Source: a virus. From it: DNA of 64,000 nucleotides. The position numbers were made by a program, and so were the translations under genes. Shown piece by piece: positions 8,708-15,875 of this stretch (position 1 is the first letter of the stretch; each line of letters starts with the position of its first letter). The stretch lies in the IMG/VR virus record IMGVR_UViG_3300010885_070871, positions 1 to 64,000 of that record. The stretch is one strand, 5' to 3'. The notes under the pieces were generated by a model. It did not search any database. It was given only the letters and a program-made list of their open reading frames with translations, and was not told where the DNA came from.

Positions 8708-9461
8708 GAAAAATATTTTAAATTTTTATTCTTTCGTAAACGAGCAAGAGCACAGAAACGATTTCTATAAAAATGAATTAAATAATTCATTTTGGAAGGG
8801 TGATTCTTTTGATCCTCAGATAAGAGAAAAGCTAATAAAAATAGCAGAGGATTTTTATAACTCTTTAAATCTAAATGTTCCTATAAGTGATATCCAATTA
8901 ACAGGATCTCTTGCAAATTATAACTGGACAGATAAATCTGATCTAGACGTCCACATATTAGTAGATTTTAGTAAAATAGATGACAATGTAGATCTTGTAA
9001 AAAAATCCTTAGATGGGATGAGATTTATATGGAATCTAAGACATAAAGTTATTCTAAGAGGACATGATGTTGAGGTTTATATACAGGACATAGAATTTCC
9101 CCATACCGCTTCTGGCTTATTTTCTTTAATGAATAATAAGTGGATAAGAGTACCTAAATATAATCTACCAGAAATAGATTACAATGACGTAGACAAAAAA
9201 TTCGACGGAATAGTTTCTGAGATATTAGAAATGGAAAATCTAATAAATTCCACTAATTTCTCATCAGTTTCAGAGGAAGAGATATACCAGCATGCAGTTA
9301 AGCTAAAATCTAAGATAATGAAAATGAGAACTGAAGGTCTTGCAAGAGAAGGAGAATTTTCAGTTGAAAACTTAGTGTTTAAAAAATTAAGAAATGAAGG
9401 ATATATACAAAAGATAATAGAATTAATTTCTAAAGCATATACAAATATATACAATGAATAA
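8706..9461 (+). CDS. Pol-beta-type nucleotidyltransferase with head-targeting-like N terminus
   Basis: 251 residues from a TTG start. The N terminus reads MKNILNFYSFVNEQE, the 'ILxFxxFxxE' tag shared by several proteins here. Residues about 58-90 carry the nucleotidyltransferase signature 'LTGSLANYNWTDKSDLDVHI' (G-S, then D-x-D), and 'HDVEVYIQD' supplies the third acidic residue. Members transfer a nucleotide to small molecules, RNA or protein. The C-terminal 80 residues are helical. No antitoxin-like partner is seen. If the tag works as in T4, the enzyme could be packaged in the head and delivered into the host. It overlaps the next gene by 8 bases. Confidence 0.75.
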   Translation: MKNILNFYSFVNEQEHRNDFYKNELNNSFWKGDSFDPQIREKLIKIAEDFYNSLNLNVPISDIQLTGSLANYNWTDKSDLDVHILVDFSKIDDNVDLVKKSLDGMRFIWNLRHKVILRGHDVEVYIQDIEFPHTASGLFSLMNNKWIRVPKYNLPEIDYNDVDKKFDGIVSEILEMENLINSTNFSSVSEEEIYQHAVKLKSKIMKMRTEGLAREGEFSVENLVFKKLRNEGYIQKIIELISKAYTNIYNE

Positions 9462-12003
9462 TCAATTTAAAAAACCTTACGGGGGATTAAATCCCATCTA
9501 CGAAAGTCTACTTTCTTCTGTAAATGAAGATAAAGACAAAAAACCGGTTGCTGTTGATGCCATAGGTACAGTAGTTAATATAATGAATACTTTTTTCTCT
9601 ATTCTTATGAATTCTCGAATGGAAAATGCTAAAACTGTAAGAGGATTTCAAGAGGTAAAGAATAAAATATTAGAGTGTAAAAGCATGGGAGCTCTAAGAC
9701 AATATTTGATTAGTTCTTTAGAATCTTTCAAGGCTTTAGACAAGGTACAAAAAGAAGCATACGATAAGAACATAAGATATGTTATGGATTCTTTTGCTTC
9801 AGTTGAACAAACTTTAGCTGATCCTAAAATTTTTGACAGTACAAAGAAAGATACTGTAATAAAAATTCTTAATAACTTTGAAGAGGATTTAAAACAGAGA
9901 GAATCTCAAATGAAAAAAACTAATCCTACTCTTTTCAATGAGGTAGTCAAAAAAGGATTAGTTGTTAAAGAATCTACACAAGACTCAGAAACAACCGACG
10001 TAGAAGCAGGAGAAGAAAGAGGAAAAGCTTTTAATAAATCTAAAGAATCTTTAGATGCTTCATCAGCTTTTGTAGGAATGATTGATAGGGATAAGTATAA
10101 CCCAGCATTAAAAGATAATGCAGACGTAAAAAGATACGAAAAAATAGCTTCTGATCTTTATAAAAAAGCTCAGGATCTACAAATGGTAGACAGAAAAGGA
10201 ATAAAAAATATTATTACTCCTTCAGGAGAGATAAAGAGAAGAGATTACCTTAGACAACAAGACAGTCTTATCAACGAAATTATAAGACAGAAAAAAGAAT
10301 ACACAAGAGTAAAAGACGGAGTTTTAAAAAATGCTGGTGCATCTAATGTTATAGCTCCCCCAGTTGAAAGTGTTTGTCCTCCAGACCATGTTTTTGATAT
10401 TGCTTCTGGTGGTTGTATTCCGGTTAAAAAACAGGAAGAAGTTAAACCTACTCCTGCACCGGTTAAAACTAAAGATTGTACTTTCCCTGTAACTTTAAAT
10501 ACTAAATGTAGTCAAATTGGAGAGATTCAATCTAAATTAATGGTTATTGCTCCATCTGTTAAATCGTACTTAAGTAAAAAAGGTGGTTCAGATAATGTTT
10601 ACGGAAAAGGTACGGCAACAGTTTGTAATATTATTTGGGGATATCTTTCTAACAACTCAGGTCAATCTTTAACAGGGGATTTAACTAAAGAAATGTATGA
10701 TGCTATCATGGCACTTACTGAAAATGATATAGACACATCAACAGCTACTGTACTAGGAGCTATAAAAGATAATAGATCAGAAGAAATCTCTATAGATCTT
10801 AAAATTCAAGAGATGGAAAATGTAAAAGAGTCTTCAGTTTTATCTTTTGAAGATTTTTATTCAGTAATAGAGGAATCATATTATTTTTCTAAAATTGACG
10901 AAGAAACTATAGAAGGAAAAGATGGTGGAGGCGTTAAAAATGCTCCAGGAAAAAATTTACCAAAAAAGATAAAAGATTCTTGTATTAAAGATTCAATTGC
11001 TCAAGGTAAAGTAGTACCATGCGATGGTAGTACTGATCCTAAAAAAGATGAAGAAGAAAAAAAGGACGAAGAAAAAATACCACCAACAAGAGATGAATGG
11101 AAAGGTATTAAATACCCAGAAACTGGGACTTATCCAGTTGCTTTTGATGAAAGTTTATTAAGTGCTTGGTCTAAAGAAGTAGCATTAACAGCTATAAGCT
11201 TTGCTATTCCTGGATCAGGATATTTAGCTAAGGCTGGAACATCCTCATTAAAAGCAATAGCAAACAGAGGTGTTGCTATGACTGCAAAAGAATTTGCTAA
11301 AAAAGTTTCTGCTAGATCTTTTGCATCGTGGAATTCTAAACAAGCAGCAAAATGGTTTGCTAAATATAAAGCAATACCTATCATAGGAAGAACATCTGCA
11401 GGACTAATAGGAGGAACAGTTGGTTCAGGAGTAGCAGATTTTATATCAGGAAGAAACTCATTTATTATTACTATAGTTGATGGTTACATTGAAAGAAACA
11501 ATCTACTAGGAATGGTAGGAGGTTTAGTTGATACATTAGATGGATATGTAAGTGACGAAGATTTAGCATGTATAGCAACAGTACTTTCAGTTGTTAAAGG
11601 ATCTTGGACAATATCTAATGATGGTACACCAATCTCTGCTTGGGGAGAAATCAAAAAATTATATTTACAACAAGAAGGAGAAGATCTTTCAGCAGATATA
11701 AATTCAATATCTTCTAAGATGGGAGACGTAGAAGGCTTTCCTTCAATTAAAGCTAATAATCCTCTTATTAAAATATCAGATATTCCTTGGGGATCTGCTC
11801 TTGCAGAAGTGAAAGATTTTGTTGCTAAATTAGATGCTAATGAGTCAACTATTAAACAAAATATTTCTAAGCTTCCTGAAGATTACGTGAAGGCTCACGA
11901 AGAAGGAGCATACGAAGATGTTACACCTGAAGAATTAGCTTCTGGAAAAAAATCTGATAGCAAAGATACTGAAGACGAATTAGAAGTAGAAGAAATAGAA
12001 TAA
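9454..12003 (+). CDS. Large putative internal head/virion protein with tag motifs
   Basis: 849 residues. The start 'NPIYESLLSSVNED' resembles 'NPLFESLLDTAKE' of the protein at 18084. Residues 1-300 are helical and charged. A Cys-containing segment at about 305-430 ('CSQIGEIQSKLMVIAPSVKS', 'TGDLTKEMYDAIMAL') has the shape of a peptidoglycan-binding-like helical bundle. Residues 460-475 read SSVLSFEDFYSVIEES, an internal copy of the tag found at other termini. Residues about 565-670 hold Ala/Gly-rich hydrophobic stretches (ISFAIPGSGYLAKAG, GRTSAGLIGGTVGSGVADF) that could insert into a membrane. The end is acidic. It lies just upstream of the protease-scaffold gene. An ejected internal protein is a reasonable but unproven guess. 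Confidence 0.6.
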   Translation: MNNQFKKPYGGLNPIYESLLSSVNEDKDKKPVAVDAIGTVVNIMNTFFSILMNSRMENAKTVRGFQEVKNKILECKSMGALRQYLISSLESFKALDKVQKEAYDKNIRYVMDSFASVEQTLADPKIFDSTKKDTVIKILNNFEEDLKQRESQMKKTNPTLFNEVVKKGLVVKESTQDSETTDVEAGEERGKAFNKSKESLDASSAFVGMIDRDKYNPALKDNADVKRYEKIASDLYKKAQDLQMVDRKGIKNIITPSGEIKRRDYLRQQDSLINEIIRQKKEYTRVKDGVLKNAGASNVIAPPVESVCPPDHVFDIASGGCIPVKKQEEVKPTPAPVKTKDCTFPVTLNTKCSQIGEIQSKLMVIAPSVKSYLSKKGGSDNVYGKGTATVCNIIWGYLSNNSGQSLTGDLTKEMYDAIMALTENDIDTSTATVLGAIKDNRSEEISIDLKIQEMENVKESSVLSFEDFYSVIEESYYFSKIDEETIEGKDGGGVKNAPGKNLPKKIKDSCIKDSIAQGKVVPCDGSTDPKKDEEEKKDEEKIPPTRDEWKGIKYPETGTYPVAFDESLLSAWSKEVALTAISFAIPGSGYLAKAGTSSLKAIANRGVAMTAKEFAKKVSARSFASWNSKQAAKWFAKYKAIPIIGRTSAGLIGGTVGSGVADFISGRNSFIITIVDGYIERNNLLGMVGGLVDTLDGYVSDEDLACIATVLSVVKGSWTISNDGTPISAWGEIKKLYLQQEGEDLSADINSISSKMGDVEGFPSIKANNPLIKISDIPWGSALAEVKDFVAKLDANESTIKQNISKLPEDYVKAHEEGAYEDVTPEELASGKKSDSKDTEDELEVEEIE

Positions 12004-12009
12004 TAATTA

Positions 12010-12018
12010 GATATATAA
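12010..12018 (+). promoter_or_regulatory. GATATATAA late-promoter-like element upstream of the protease gene
   Basis: GATATATAA is followed by an A/T-rich stretch and the ATG at 12034. It matches the recurrent motif preceding many structural genes and would drive the protease-scaffold and capsid genes as one unit. Confidence 0.45.
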
Positions 12019-12033
12019 AATAATAATTAAAAA

Positions 12034-14091
12034 ATGAAAGATCAAGACTACGTATTAATACTAGAGAAATCATCAAAAAACCTTTCAGTTAGTAGAGAGG
12101 GAGGAGATTATTTCTTGGAAGGTACAGCTGCAGTTTTCGGAGTAGAAAACTCAAATCATAGGATATATGAAGAAAAAGAATATCTTCCACACCTTGATTA
12201 TCTAACAAAGAAAATAGAGCAAAATAGATTAGTTGGTGAATTAGATCACCCTAAAGAATTTGATGTTTCACTTAAGAATATATCACATTTAATTACTGAT
12301 CTTAACTACGATAAAGATAATAGAACAGTTAAAATAAAAGTTAAACTATTAGATACGCCAGCAGGTAAAATAGCTAAAAGTTTAGTTGATGCTGGTATTC
12401 CTATTTCTATCTCTTCTAGAGCAGCAGGTAATGTAAAAGAAAACAAAAAAGTTGAAATTAAAAAGATTTTCACTTACGATTTAGTAGCAGATCCTGGTTT
12501 TGAAAATGCTCAATTAGAAAGAGTAGAAGAGAGCCAAGGATTATACGAAAGTCTAGGATTTGCTGATTTTGCAAAAAATCAAAAGTCTTCAGTAATTTCT
12601 TCACTTGATTTAATAAATGAAAGTTTAGGATTGAGAAAAAATTCTAATACTAAGATATATAGGATTAATGACACAGAGAAAATTACAAAACTCTTAAAAG
12701 AAAACATAAATAATATAAAGAATATGGACAATAACTTTGTCACAGCAGAAGAGCTAAATGAGTACTCACTCATTCTTAAAAAAGAAATGGATTCGTTAAA
12801 AAGCGAAATGAAATCTATTTCAAAAACAAGATCTATTAATGAAAGTTCAGATGCTAGTGATTCTGGTTTAAACGAAAGAATCTCTAGACTTGAAAAATAT
12901 TCTGAGTATCTTGCAGAAAATTTAGAATCTGCTATAAAGTATGGCGATTATATTGCTGAGAATTTAGAAGGATCTATTTCTTATAATAAGTATCTTGCTG
13001 AGAATTTAGATAAAGCTATTTCTTATGCTAAATATTTAGCAGAGCATGTTGATGGTAACATTACATATTCTGAATATATTGCTGAGAACTTAGATAAGAA
13101 TATTTCTTATAGCAAATACTTAGCAGAGAACTTAGACAAGAATATTACTTATTCAGAATATCTTGCTGAGAATTTAGATAAGAACATTTCTTATTCTGAA
13201 TATCTTGGTGAAAACTTAGACAAGAATATTTCTTATTCAGAATATCTTGCTGAGAACTTAGATAAGAACATTTCTTATTCAGAATATTTAGCTGAAAAAT
13301 TAGACAGAAACATTTCTTACTCTGATTATTTAGCTGAGAACTTAGATAAAAACATTTCTTATTCTGATTATTTAGGAGAAAAATTAAATGGTAACATTAA
13401 CTACTCTGAATATATTGCTGAGAAAGTAAAATCTAATATTGAATATTCAGAATATCTTGCTGAATCAATCAATAACAAAGGAGTTACTAAAAATCAAATG
13501 ATCAATAAAGTTAATGAATCTATAAACGAAGGAAAAAGAACTTCAGGATTTGCTGGAGATTATAATTCACTTTCTTCTAAAGTAGATAAACTTATTGAAT
13601 CTGTAACTACAAACAAACAAGATCAAATTATTAACGAAAATAAATACTCTTTCTTAAAACTTGTTGATGACAACACTAAGAAAGGATTTTTAACACTAAA
13701 CGAGGCCGAAAAACAAAAGGTCACTAAAGCTCTTAATGAGCAGAATTACAATTCGGGTACGGATGTAGTTCAAATTATGGGATCCGCACTAGCTGAACAA
13801 AATGCTTCAGGAGTGAAATTCCTCGATATGATGCCAGAAGATTTAAAAACTGTTTGGGAATCTTTAAATGAATCGCATAGAGCTTCTATTGTTGCTCAAA
13901 GCAAATTCTATAAATTAGATACCTCTTATCAGATTAATCACTTCTGGAGAACAAGAGGTCTTTCTGCACCAAAAGCAAATTTAGAAAGAATAGAGGAATC
14001 TCAAAATCCAAATCCAGCGGTTAATACCGGCATTAGCAATAGCTATATGCAGAATATTGCAGCTGAATTGGATAAAAGATTTAAAAAATAA
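12034..14091 (+). CDS. 21: Prohead protease fused to a repeat-bearing scaffold
   Basis: 685 residues. Residues 1-170 match T4 gp21-type prohead protease: 'NRLVGELDHPKEFDVSLKNI' carries the catalytic His, 'IPISISSRAAGNV' the catalytic Ser region, and 'YDLVADPGFENAQLE' the final strand. After a helical linker, residues 289-484 are 14 copies of a 14-residue repeat. The C-terminal 200 residues include 'VVQIMGSALAEQNASGVKFL' and 'INHFWRTRGLSAPKANLERI' and look like a helical scaffold. In T4, gp21 (protease) and gp22 (scaffold) are separate genes before gp23; here one protein seems to do both. Repeats with 'YLAE' offer many L-x-E sites for self-cleavage. Capsid gene follows 11 bases later. Confidence 0.85.
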   Translation: MKDQDYVLILEKSSKNLSVSREGGDYFLEGTAAVFGVENSNHRIYEEKEYLPHLDYLTKKIEQNRLVGELDHPKEFDVSLKNISHLITDLNYDKDNRTVKIKVKLLDTPAGKIAKSLVDAGIPISISSRAAGNVKENKKVEIKKIFTYDLVADPGFENAQLERVEESQGLYESLGFADFAKNQKSSVISSLDLINESLGLRKNSNTKIYRINDTEKITKLLKENINNIKNMDNNFVTAEELNEYSLILKKEMDSLKSEMKSISKTRSINESSDASDSGLNERISRLEKYSEYLAENLESAIKYGDYIAENLEGSISYNKYLAENLDKAISYAKYLAEHVDGNITYSEYIAENLDKNISYSKYLAENLDKNITYSEYLAENLDKNISYSEYLGENLDKNISYSEYLAENLDKNISYSEYLAEKLDRNISYSDYLAENLDKNISYSDYLGEKLNGNINYSEYIAEKVKSNIEYSEYLAESINNKGVTKNQMINKVNESINEGKRTSGFAGDYNSLSSKVDKLIESVTTNKQDQIINENKYSFLKLVDDNTKKGFLTLNEAEKQKVTKALNEQNYNSGTDVVQIMGSALAEQNASGVKFLDMMPEDLKTVWESLNESHRASIVAQSKFYKLDTSYQINHFWRTRGLSAPKANLERIEESQNPNPAVNTGISNSYMQNIAAELDKRFKK
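12898..13485 (+). repeat. Fourteen 42-bp repeats coding YSEYLAENLDKNIS-type units
   Basis: Fourteen head-to-tail 14-residue units with no insertion or deletion between them, each starting with Tyr. The consensus is Y-S-E-Y-L-A-E-N-L-D-K-N-I-S; the outer units diverge most and the central ones are nearly identical. Fourteen residues equal two heptads, so a long helical rod or coiled coil is likely. Each unit carries an L/I-A/G-E triplet of the kind gp21-like proteases cut after. Confidence 0.95.
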
Positions 14092-14102: not shown

Positions 14103-15875
14103 ATGCAACTCTTAAATCAAAACGAGATCTACGAATCATGGTCTCCAATCATCGAGAGCAAGACCGGCATTACTGATCGTACAAAAGTTGAATGGCTTTC
14201 TAAATATTGTCACTTCCACTCATTAAACGAATCTGCTGGAGCTTATAACTCTCTTTCTGTACTAAACGGCATGAGCTCAGTTCAGCCTGCTGGTAACTAC
14301 TCAGGTGGTGCTGCTGATAACGGTACTTATGGTAATGGTTTCTATTACAATAATACTTACAATGCAGGACGTCCTTACGTAGGTTCTGGTGATAAATTCC
14401 CATCATTACTTCCATTGGCTATTCAGGTAGCTGCTAAAACCGTAGGTTTTGACATCGTTCCTGTTATTCCAATGAGCGGTCCAACTGGGGTATTATCTTA
14501 CCTAGACTATGTTTATGCTGGTGGTACTTTAGCTGGTTCATCTGCAGATAGTAGTACTAACTTTACTACAAACACTCCTGATATGATTAAAGTTCCTATC
14601 GGTGTTGCTTCTCCAGTATTTGGTACTTTAACAGTAGGTGCTTATTACATTATTTATGTAACTAGTGCTAACCCTGCTATTGATTCTGCTAAAGGTCAAT
14701 TCGTTGGATATTCACGTATCGACGGTTTCCCTATCTTCAGAATTACTGCAATGACTACTGGTAATTCTATTGCTTCTGTTGTTACTGCAGCTTCTGAAAT
14801 CTTATTAGCTTCTTCTCAAGCAGATGATCAGACTATGACTACTGCAGGTTCTGTTTTAGCTTTCTCTGGCGGTAACGCAGTTTTAGTTAAAACTTTAGAA
14901 GATCACATCCAAGGTTTCTCTGGTGCTGGTGCTAATAACACTAACAACTGGCAAGGTCCTTATGTAGACGGTACTCAAAACTACGATCCAATGAACAGAG
15001 GAGTAGGTGAGTCTAACTACTATAAGTCTTTAGGTCTTTCTACATTCACTAAGTTCGTTGAAGCTGGTACTTTCCAAGTTGCTGCTTCTGTTACTACTGA
15101 GCAAATCCAAGATCTTAACAAGCAATTCGGTATCGACGTAGTTTCTATGATCGAGAACGCTCTTGTTAATGAGGTTTCTCAAGCTATTAACAAGCACATC
15201 TTATCAAGAGGTTTTGCTTTAGGTTGGTCAAATCACTCTCAATTCTTAGTAACTGAGGGAACTAACTTAAACTTAAACTTAGTAATTGGTGGTGTTTCTA
15301 CAGGTTACAACGTTCCTAACTATGTAGGTAAAACAGGTCAAGCTTTATCTGGTTCTTCTAAGCCAGGTTCAGTAGCTGGTCCAGTTTCAGGTACTTTTGA
15401 GAACTTATCAACAGTTCAAAGAAGACTTTACAGCCGTATCTTAGCAGCTGCTAACGTAGTAGCTAATAGAGGTCGTAGAGGTCCTGCTAACTTCATCGTT
15501 ACAAACTCTCAAATTGCGTCTGCTTTACAAGACATCAGTCAGTTTACATTCGCTCCTTTCACAAACACTCTTACTCAGAACAATGGTACACTTTACCCAG
15601 TAGGTTCACTTGCTGGTATGACTGTGTATGTTGATCAGAACATGTCATTCGGTGACACTAGAGTATTAGTTGGACGTAAAGGTGCTGATGATGAACCAGG
15701 TTTAAAATTCATGCCTTACATGATGGCAGAATCTATTCAGACAATCTCTGAAGGAACTATGTCACCAAAAATCGCAGTTAAGTCTAGATATTCTTTAGTA
15801 GAAGCTGGACACTTACCTGAGACTATGTACTTCTGCTTCCATGTTAATACTGGATCAGCTACTTCTATCATCTAA
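14103..15875 (+). CDS. 23: Major capsid protein, gp23-like
   Basis: 590 residues, directly downstream of the protease-scaffold gene as in T4. Similarity to gp23 is seen in 'RRGPANFIVTNSQIASALQD', 'YPVGSLAGMTVYVDQNMSFG', 'GLKFMPYMMAESIQTISEG' and 'SPKIAVKSRYSLVEAGHLPE'. A long Gly/Ala/Ser/Thr-rich segment at about 60-270 probably forms a surface insertion domain. The N terminus offers possible maturation sites after Glu18 (I-I-E|S) and Glu43 (L-N-E|S), both of the type cut by gp21-like proteases. Codon choice differs from the neighbours: many C-ending codons (AAC, TAC, TTC, ATC) and CGT, consistent with very high expression. A strong terminator follows. Confidence 0.93.
   Translation: MQLLNQNEIYESWSPIIESKTGITDRTKVEWLSKYCHFHSLNESAGAYNSLSVLNGMSSVQPAGNYSGGAADNGTYGNGFYYNNTYNAGRPYVGSGDKFPSLLPLAIQVAAKTVGFDIVPVIPMSGPTGVLSYLDYVYAGGTLAGSSADSSTNFTTNTPDMIKVPIGVASPVFGTLTVGAYYIIYVTSANPAIDSAKGQFVGYSRIDGFPIFRITAMTTGNSIASVVTAASEILLASSQADDQTMTTAGSVLAFSGGNAVLVKTLEDHIQGFSGAGANNTNNWQGPYVDGTQNYDPMNRGVGESNYYKSLGLSTFTKFVEAGTFQVAASVTTEQIQDLNKQFGIDVVSMIENALVNEVSQAINKHILSRGFALGWSNHSQFLVTEGTNLNLNLVIGGVSTGYNVPNYVGKTGQALSGSSKPGSVAGPVSGTFENLSTVQRRLYSRILAAANVVANRGRRGPANFIVTNSQIASALQDISQFTFAPFTNTLTQNNGTLYPVGSLAGMTVYVDQNMSFGDTRVLVGRKGADDEPGLKFMPYMMAESIQTISEGTMSPKIAVKSRYSLVEAGHLPETMYFCFHVNTGSATSII

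Follow-up and report, generated by a model that had tools for sequence, protein, structure and literature searches.

A fused prohead protease-scaffold gene with a 14-residue repeat rod and a predicted nested scaffold gene in Mahaphages and their relatives

The fused gene and its relatives

The window analyzed here is a stretch of 64,000 nucleotides (positions 1 to 64,000) of an 80,922-base viral record, IMGVR_UViG_3300010885_070871. On its plus strand, an intact open reading frame with an ATG start (positions 12034 to 14091) encodes a protein of 685 amino acids, in which a T4 gp21-type protease domain is followed by a helical rod of 14 units and a small C-terminal domain; homologs have an equal layout. 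The gene downstream (positions 14103 to 15875, plus strand), separated from the first by a gap of 11 nt, encodes a major capsid protein of the gp23 type (Pfam Gp23, 9.1e-39). The original prediction had placed a gp21-type protease and a scaffold segment in one gene, with a 14-unit rod and directly 5' of the capsid gene. The open reading frame, the profile matches, and the register scan described below agree with it, and the separate protease gene found in T4 agrees with its premise that gp21 and gp22 are two genes in that phage. Directly 5' of the fused gene, positions 9454 to 12003 encode an 849-amino-acid protein with no Pfam or PHROG match. No portal gene was recognized among the window proteins scanned.

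The protease domain spans approximately residues 20 to 160 (positions 12091 to 12513, plus strand). It matched Pfam Peptidase_S77 (39.9 bits; cutoff, 27) and S80 (33.2 bits; cutoff, 23.4), as well as PHROG 207, "head maturation protease" (5.8e-38), and the description of the N-terminal domain as clearly gp21-like was therefore upheld. A sequence search against solved structures gave no useful match for the fused protein; the best Foldseek matches of its predicted model were 5jbl chains (E value, 3.8e-10), indicating the gp21 fold. Residues H72, S127, and S128 were invariant across 42 sequences, and from knowledge of the family we take H72 and S127/S128 to be the active-site His and Ser. Between the protease and the scaffold lies a candidate release site, I-N-E/S (residues 194 to 197; positions 12613 to 12624, plus strand; the slash marks the putative cut), which resembles the capsid site described below. 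Its Glu196 is at least 90% conserved, and the protease would separate itself from the scaffold by cutting here. Short stand-alone relatives of the protease domain were seen at W03:C1:154846-155139, W04:C1:11386-11787, and G009:C1:49710-50045 (loci L151, L152, and L155). These are probable inactive gp21 paralogs, which have lost both the Ser of SSR and the conserved His (GELDHP changed to GELYNP, GELGYP, or GELGFP).

Three scans of IMG/VR yielded 118 loci, a few duplicates among them, and 111 homologous proteins were aligned. The fused layout was common to more than 100 homologs, including those of Mahaphages of 634 to 735 kb. In an annotated phage collection, the nearest relatives were LR756500, LR745206, LR756504, LR756502, and LR756501/03 (genomes of 462 to 735 kb), followed by the Lak phages. 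The 634-, 636-, 642-, and 735-kb genomes are reported to be complete, to belong to the Mahaphage clade, and to have predicted Bacteroidetes hosts (PMC7162821). The protease gene is separate in T4, P-SSM4, PA5oct, OC, Cr30, XaC1, Vibrio 2.275, and Sphingomonas PAU, and fused in PTm1, MA9V-2, MaF61, Lak, and the Mahaphages. Fusion of protease and scaffold has precedents in lambda, P2, herpesviruses, and the PTm1 gene, which already carries the annotation "prohead core scaffolding protein and protease"; a similar name is in use for Bacteroidetes phages (PMC9723584).

The C-terminal helical domain (approximately residues 535 to 646; positions 13636 to 13971, plus strand; pLDDT of at most 83) is common to the fused proteins of PTm1, Lak, and MA9V-2 (hhalign probabilities of 97, 90, and 82%, respectively; 2% for MaF61), and is conserved across the fused protease-scaffold proteins of Bacteroidota phages. 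The C terminus had been called scaffold-like. It stands as a conserved domain of fused proteins, without a detectable sequence relationship to T4 gp22: the scaffold part had no match to PHROG 237 and an hhalign probability of 0.4% with gp22, and the C terminus was rejected as a gp22 homolog. The original prediction had also proposed a search for a separate gp22-like gene, and none of the T4 type was found in eight relatives with PHROG 237, for which the T4 and P-SSM4 controls were positive. This is weak evidence that a stand-alone gp22 is missing, because gp22-type scaffold proteins diverge fast and a single profile was used. A scaffold role is supported by the place of the gene before gp23 (the place of gp22 in phages with split genes), by the long helices, and by the density of [LI]xE tripeptides.

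The 14-residue rod and its candidate cleavage sites

The rod consists of 14 units of 14 residues each (residues 289 to 484; positions 12898 to 13485, plus strand). A 42-nt period was detected over positions 12949 to 13424 (TRF), and a position-specific scan placed all 14 units in perfect register, with the consensus YSEYLAENLDKNIS. The motif [LI]-x-E was present in 14/14 units, in the form [LI]-[AG]-E that had been predicted for each of them. Such a rod is not due to chance, because nearly all related genes contain between 8 and 15 copies of the same unit in the same register; a degenerate rod was seen only in the lineage of the 462-kb genome. Rod helices were predicted, at low confidence (pTM, 0.29), for residues 277 to 364, 369 to 446, and 455 to 479.

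Among 623 units from 49 representatives, positions Y4, E7, Y1, and A6 were conserved in 99, 98, 96, and 91%, respectively, and positions E3, N8, and D10 in only 65 to 68% (E3, 65%). In the capsid protein of the window, a candidate maturation site, L-N-E, was located near the N terminus (residues 41 to 43; positions 14223 to 14231, plus strand). Its Glu was present in 68 of the 74 aligned capsid proteins, with Asp in the remaining 6, and its consensus across relatives, [LI]-[NHY]-E, resembles the [LI]-x-E of the rod. The sequence at the known 65-residue cut of T4 gp23 (PMC9958956) is LTE. The conservation of E7 compared with E3 and the likeness of the capsid motif support the earlier proposal that each unit carries the type of site that the protease cuts. 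Computation establishes that protease and scaffold are fused, that the repeats form a lattice with a conserved Glu, and that rod and capsid protein have a site motif in common.

The scaffold part of 455 amino acids contains 25 [LI]xE tripeptides (7.9 expected), i.e., 5.5 per 100 amino acids and 3.2 times the shuffled level, and T4 gp22 contains 16 (5.7 expected), or 5.9 per 100. Other proteins in the gp22 position had 4.2 to 5.6 per 100 amino acids; other window proteins had about 1, and counts were near expectation in most of them and in the protease domain. Because the density matches that of T4 gp22, which gp21 is reported to degrade into small peptides (PMC9958956), we favor the reading in which the protease shreds the scaffold to which it is fused, and the protease likely cuts all along the rod. 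The original prediction of a scaffold shredded from within is favored in this form. It is not a distinctive trait, as T4 already treats gp22 in this way; cutting along the rod would be a more regular version of what happens in T4.

Alternatively, the rod Glu might be purely structural, serving helix packing or salt bridges in a rod that is left uncut while the protease trims only the scaffold ends and the capsid protein. We regard this as unlikely. Charges are commonly conserved in helical repeats, but E7 is conserved far above the other charged positions. Units of the 462-kb lineage have lost the Glu and yet kept the hydrophobic pattern in several cases, which a structural role for the repeat would accommodate; however, the enrichment of [LI]xE over the whole scaffold remains in homologs whose repeat has decayed, and the reported degradation of T4 gp22 at equal [LI]xE density likewise argues for cutting.

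Two to three copies of the 14-residue unit also occur in other phage proteins, at W04:C1:620141-620266 (L149), G017:C1:264647-264796 (L150), and W01:C1:460486-460635 (L148), one of which contains a collagen-like stretch. Units on these three proteins might be core-targeting tags. Several otherwise different proteins of the 735-kb clade (L092, L098, L149, and L152) have a common C-terminal tail, DPYGEE(D/N)W.

A conserved internal start codon and a promoter-like motif

An internal, in-frame ATG (positions 12724 to 12726, plus strand) encodes Met231, in the linker between the protease and the rod. A nested, 3' co-terminal open reading frame of 455 amino acids (positions 12724 to 14091, plus strand), encoding the scaffold alone, is predicted from this conserved start and from the motif upstream of it. 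An alignment of this otherwise gap-rich linker had a Met in 79/79 homologs. In the wider set of 111 homologs, the Met231 column was kept in 95, within a variable linker, and the other 16, all of clade F, had Met-Glu/Asp a few residues upstream of that column; a loss of Met in clade F was thus rejected.

Relative to the gene average, synonymous variation in windows spanning Met231 fell to 0.37 (clade A), 0.38 (clade B), and 0.26 (clade C). Seven clades were tested, clade H being left out as too uniform, and a dip was found in six of them. With amino-acid-matched resampling, P values (best of six windows, uncorrected, and referring to codon columns rather than to independent events, as homologs within a clade are kin) were <2e-4 for each of clades A, B, and C; for clades G, E, and F, they were 0.003, 0.007, and 0.026, respectively. 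In clade D, which comprises the 634- to 642-kb phages, synonymous variation was not significantly lower over the Met (P = 0.16), and this counts against a nested gene. No Shine-Dalgarno-like sequence was seen before the internal ATG, and the start of the full-length gene generally lacks one as well.

The motif GATATATA occurs 24 nt before the ATG of the fused gene (positions 12010 to 12017, plus strand) and again inside the gene, upstream of Met231 (positions 12654 to 12661, plus strand). Its placement in the window, not its number (10, compared with 7.8 expected), is unusual. Eight of the 10 copies (7964 [minus strand], 8682, 9400, 12010, 15947, 18072, 23146 [minus strand], and 24917) lie on the same strand as a called start and within 60 nt 5' of it, a zone for which area alone predicts about 3%; of the other two, one overlaps a called TTG start and one is the internal copy. 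In an unbiased count of the 8-mers 5' of starts, GATATATA ranked first in both clade A and clade B. From this distribution, GATATATA likely marks promoters of the phage.

Of the 82 distinct homologs, 51 have an internal copy that precedes the Met by 47 to 79 nt, whereas random synonymous recoding gave an expectation of 1.9% and a maximum of 5.4%. In clade F, the internal motif is encoded as Gly-Tyr-Ile, and elsewhere it lies across Lys/Arg-Ile-Tyr in a different reading frame; it is therefore not kept for the sake of the protein. Conservation extended to clades A, B, C, F, and G. The exact motif was absent from clades D and E, where the internal sequence reads GATATATG and the motif upstream of the genes is AATATATA, so that an internal promoter is unsupported in these two clades. 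In most clades, then, both the internal motif and the start are conserved at the DNA level, and we infer that the internal GATATATA may act as a promoter. The nested gene, the internal motif, and the start codon were absent from the original prediction.

These features could also be explained if a single fused protein is made, with protease and scaffold at 1:1, the internal motif is a promoter for the capsid gene, and the Met is kept for some other reason. Because GATATATA is absent between positions 12662 and 14103, the internal copy could indeed serve the capsid gene, and the fused gene of PTm1 has no obvious internal Met, which counts against a nested gene. Against a single product, however, the synonymous constraint surrounds the Met itself, and the Met is conserved within a variable, gap-rich linker and moves with that linker in clade F. 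We therefore consider a single product quite unlikely, and a scaffold-only protein is probably made as well, as in UL26/UL26.5 and lambda C/Nu3.

Head assembly in comparison with known systems

The T4 core contains about 580 copies of gp22 and 55 of gp21, or roughly ten scaffold molecules per protease (PMC9958956). With these numbers, a 1:1 fusion would need an extra source of scaffold, and whereas the fused gene alone would give equal amounts, the Met231 product would restore the excess. A two-product head-assembly gene with protease-driven clearing of the core is, in our judgment, likely to be the best explanation of the locus. Full-length translation would give the protease-rod-domain protein, whose scaffold part would enter the prohead core and bring the protease along. 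The internal promoter would give a second, shorter transcript, which could also serve the capsid gene, and translation from Met231 would yield the scaffold alone in amounts exceeding the protease. Once the shell is complete, the protease would cut after [LI]-x-E at INE/S, in the rod units, in the C-terminal part, and at the capsid protein N terminus. The core would thereby be reduced to small peptides, whose exit would make space for DNA. We infer from the sequences that a scaffold-only product exists and outnumbers the protease, that the [LI]-x-E sites are cut, and that events follow this order.

The original prediction had further proposed that the repeat number acts as a ruler, the count of 14-residue units setting head size; this is very improbable, because unit number did not track genome size, our proxy for head size (rho, 0.19 [n = 7], or -0.09 without the degenerate rod [n = 6]), and the fused gene of the Lak phages (540 kb) contains no 14-residue rod. 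Well-scoring units numbered 12 in the 374-kb genome, 13 in the 482-kb genome, 11 each in the 635-, 636-, and 642-kb genomes, and 13 in the 735-kb genome, with 4 recognizable units in the degenerate rod of the 462-kb genome. The 374- and 482-kb contigs were taken as complete on the basis of terminal direct repeats, and the 462-kb record was included without a completeness check. In favor of a ruler, unit number varies by whole 14-residue steps, and total scaffold length was correlated with genome size (rho, 0.86; n = 7; genomes not independent). In genomes taken as complete, unit number nevertheless did not follow genome size, and the ruler was not supported. The original interpretation thus survives for the fusion and for the rod Glu as a predicted cleavage site and, with the qualification given above, for shredding. 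The two contigs with end direct repeats, G017 (482,156 bases; locus L062) and G019 (373,759 bases; locus L069), look like complete circular huge-phage genomes.

Compared with T4 gp21/gp22, the window gene shares the protease family and fold, the scaffold just 5' of gp23, the dense [LI]-x-E in the scaffold, and the capsid N-terminal site; it differs in being one gene instead of two, in its 14-residue lattice, and in having no gp22 sequence match. The fused genes of PTm1, Lak, MA9V-2, and MaF61 likewise join a gp21-type protease to a scaffold-like part, and the first three have the C-terminal domain in common with the window protein, but all four lack the YSEYLAENLDKNIS rod. In herpesviruses, an in-frame, 3' co-terminal scaffold gene (UL26.5) lies inside the protease-scaffold gene (UL26), with a release site between protease and scaffold (PMC4498786). 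The candidate INE/S site between the protease and Met231 corresponds to the release site upstream of the UL26.5 start. The herpesvirus protease, however, belongs to a different family (weak Foldseek similarity, E value of 0.03 or worse), and in the window gene the nested product is a prediction from sequence; homology of the scaffolds is not claimed. One gene also encodes protease and scaffold in lambda (C/Nu3) and P2 (GpO) (PMC8508860). Unlike the window gene, these have no repeat rod. A conserved, in-frame, putative internal start of the UL26/UL26.5 and C/Nu3 kind is present in the window gene. The lambda C and Nu3 genes overlap, and to our knowledge the lambda C and P2 GpO proteases are unrelated to gp21.

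Tentatively, and with limited confidence, we suggest for the Mahaphages the combination of a nested, separately promoted scaffold gene, one protease site per 14-residue unit that would yield uniform short peptides, and units on a few other proteins (for example, in W04 and G017) that may tag them for core coassembly. If true, the nested gene would explain how a fused gene yields much scaffold and little protease. It would also extend to a T4-lineage phage family, with its gp21-type protease, the gene logic known from herpesviruses and lambda. For huge phages that have not been cultivated, GATATATA provides a promoter motif that can be tested, and annotation of the fused gene with one product may overlook its most abundant product.
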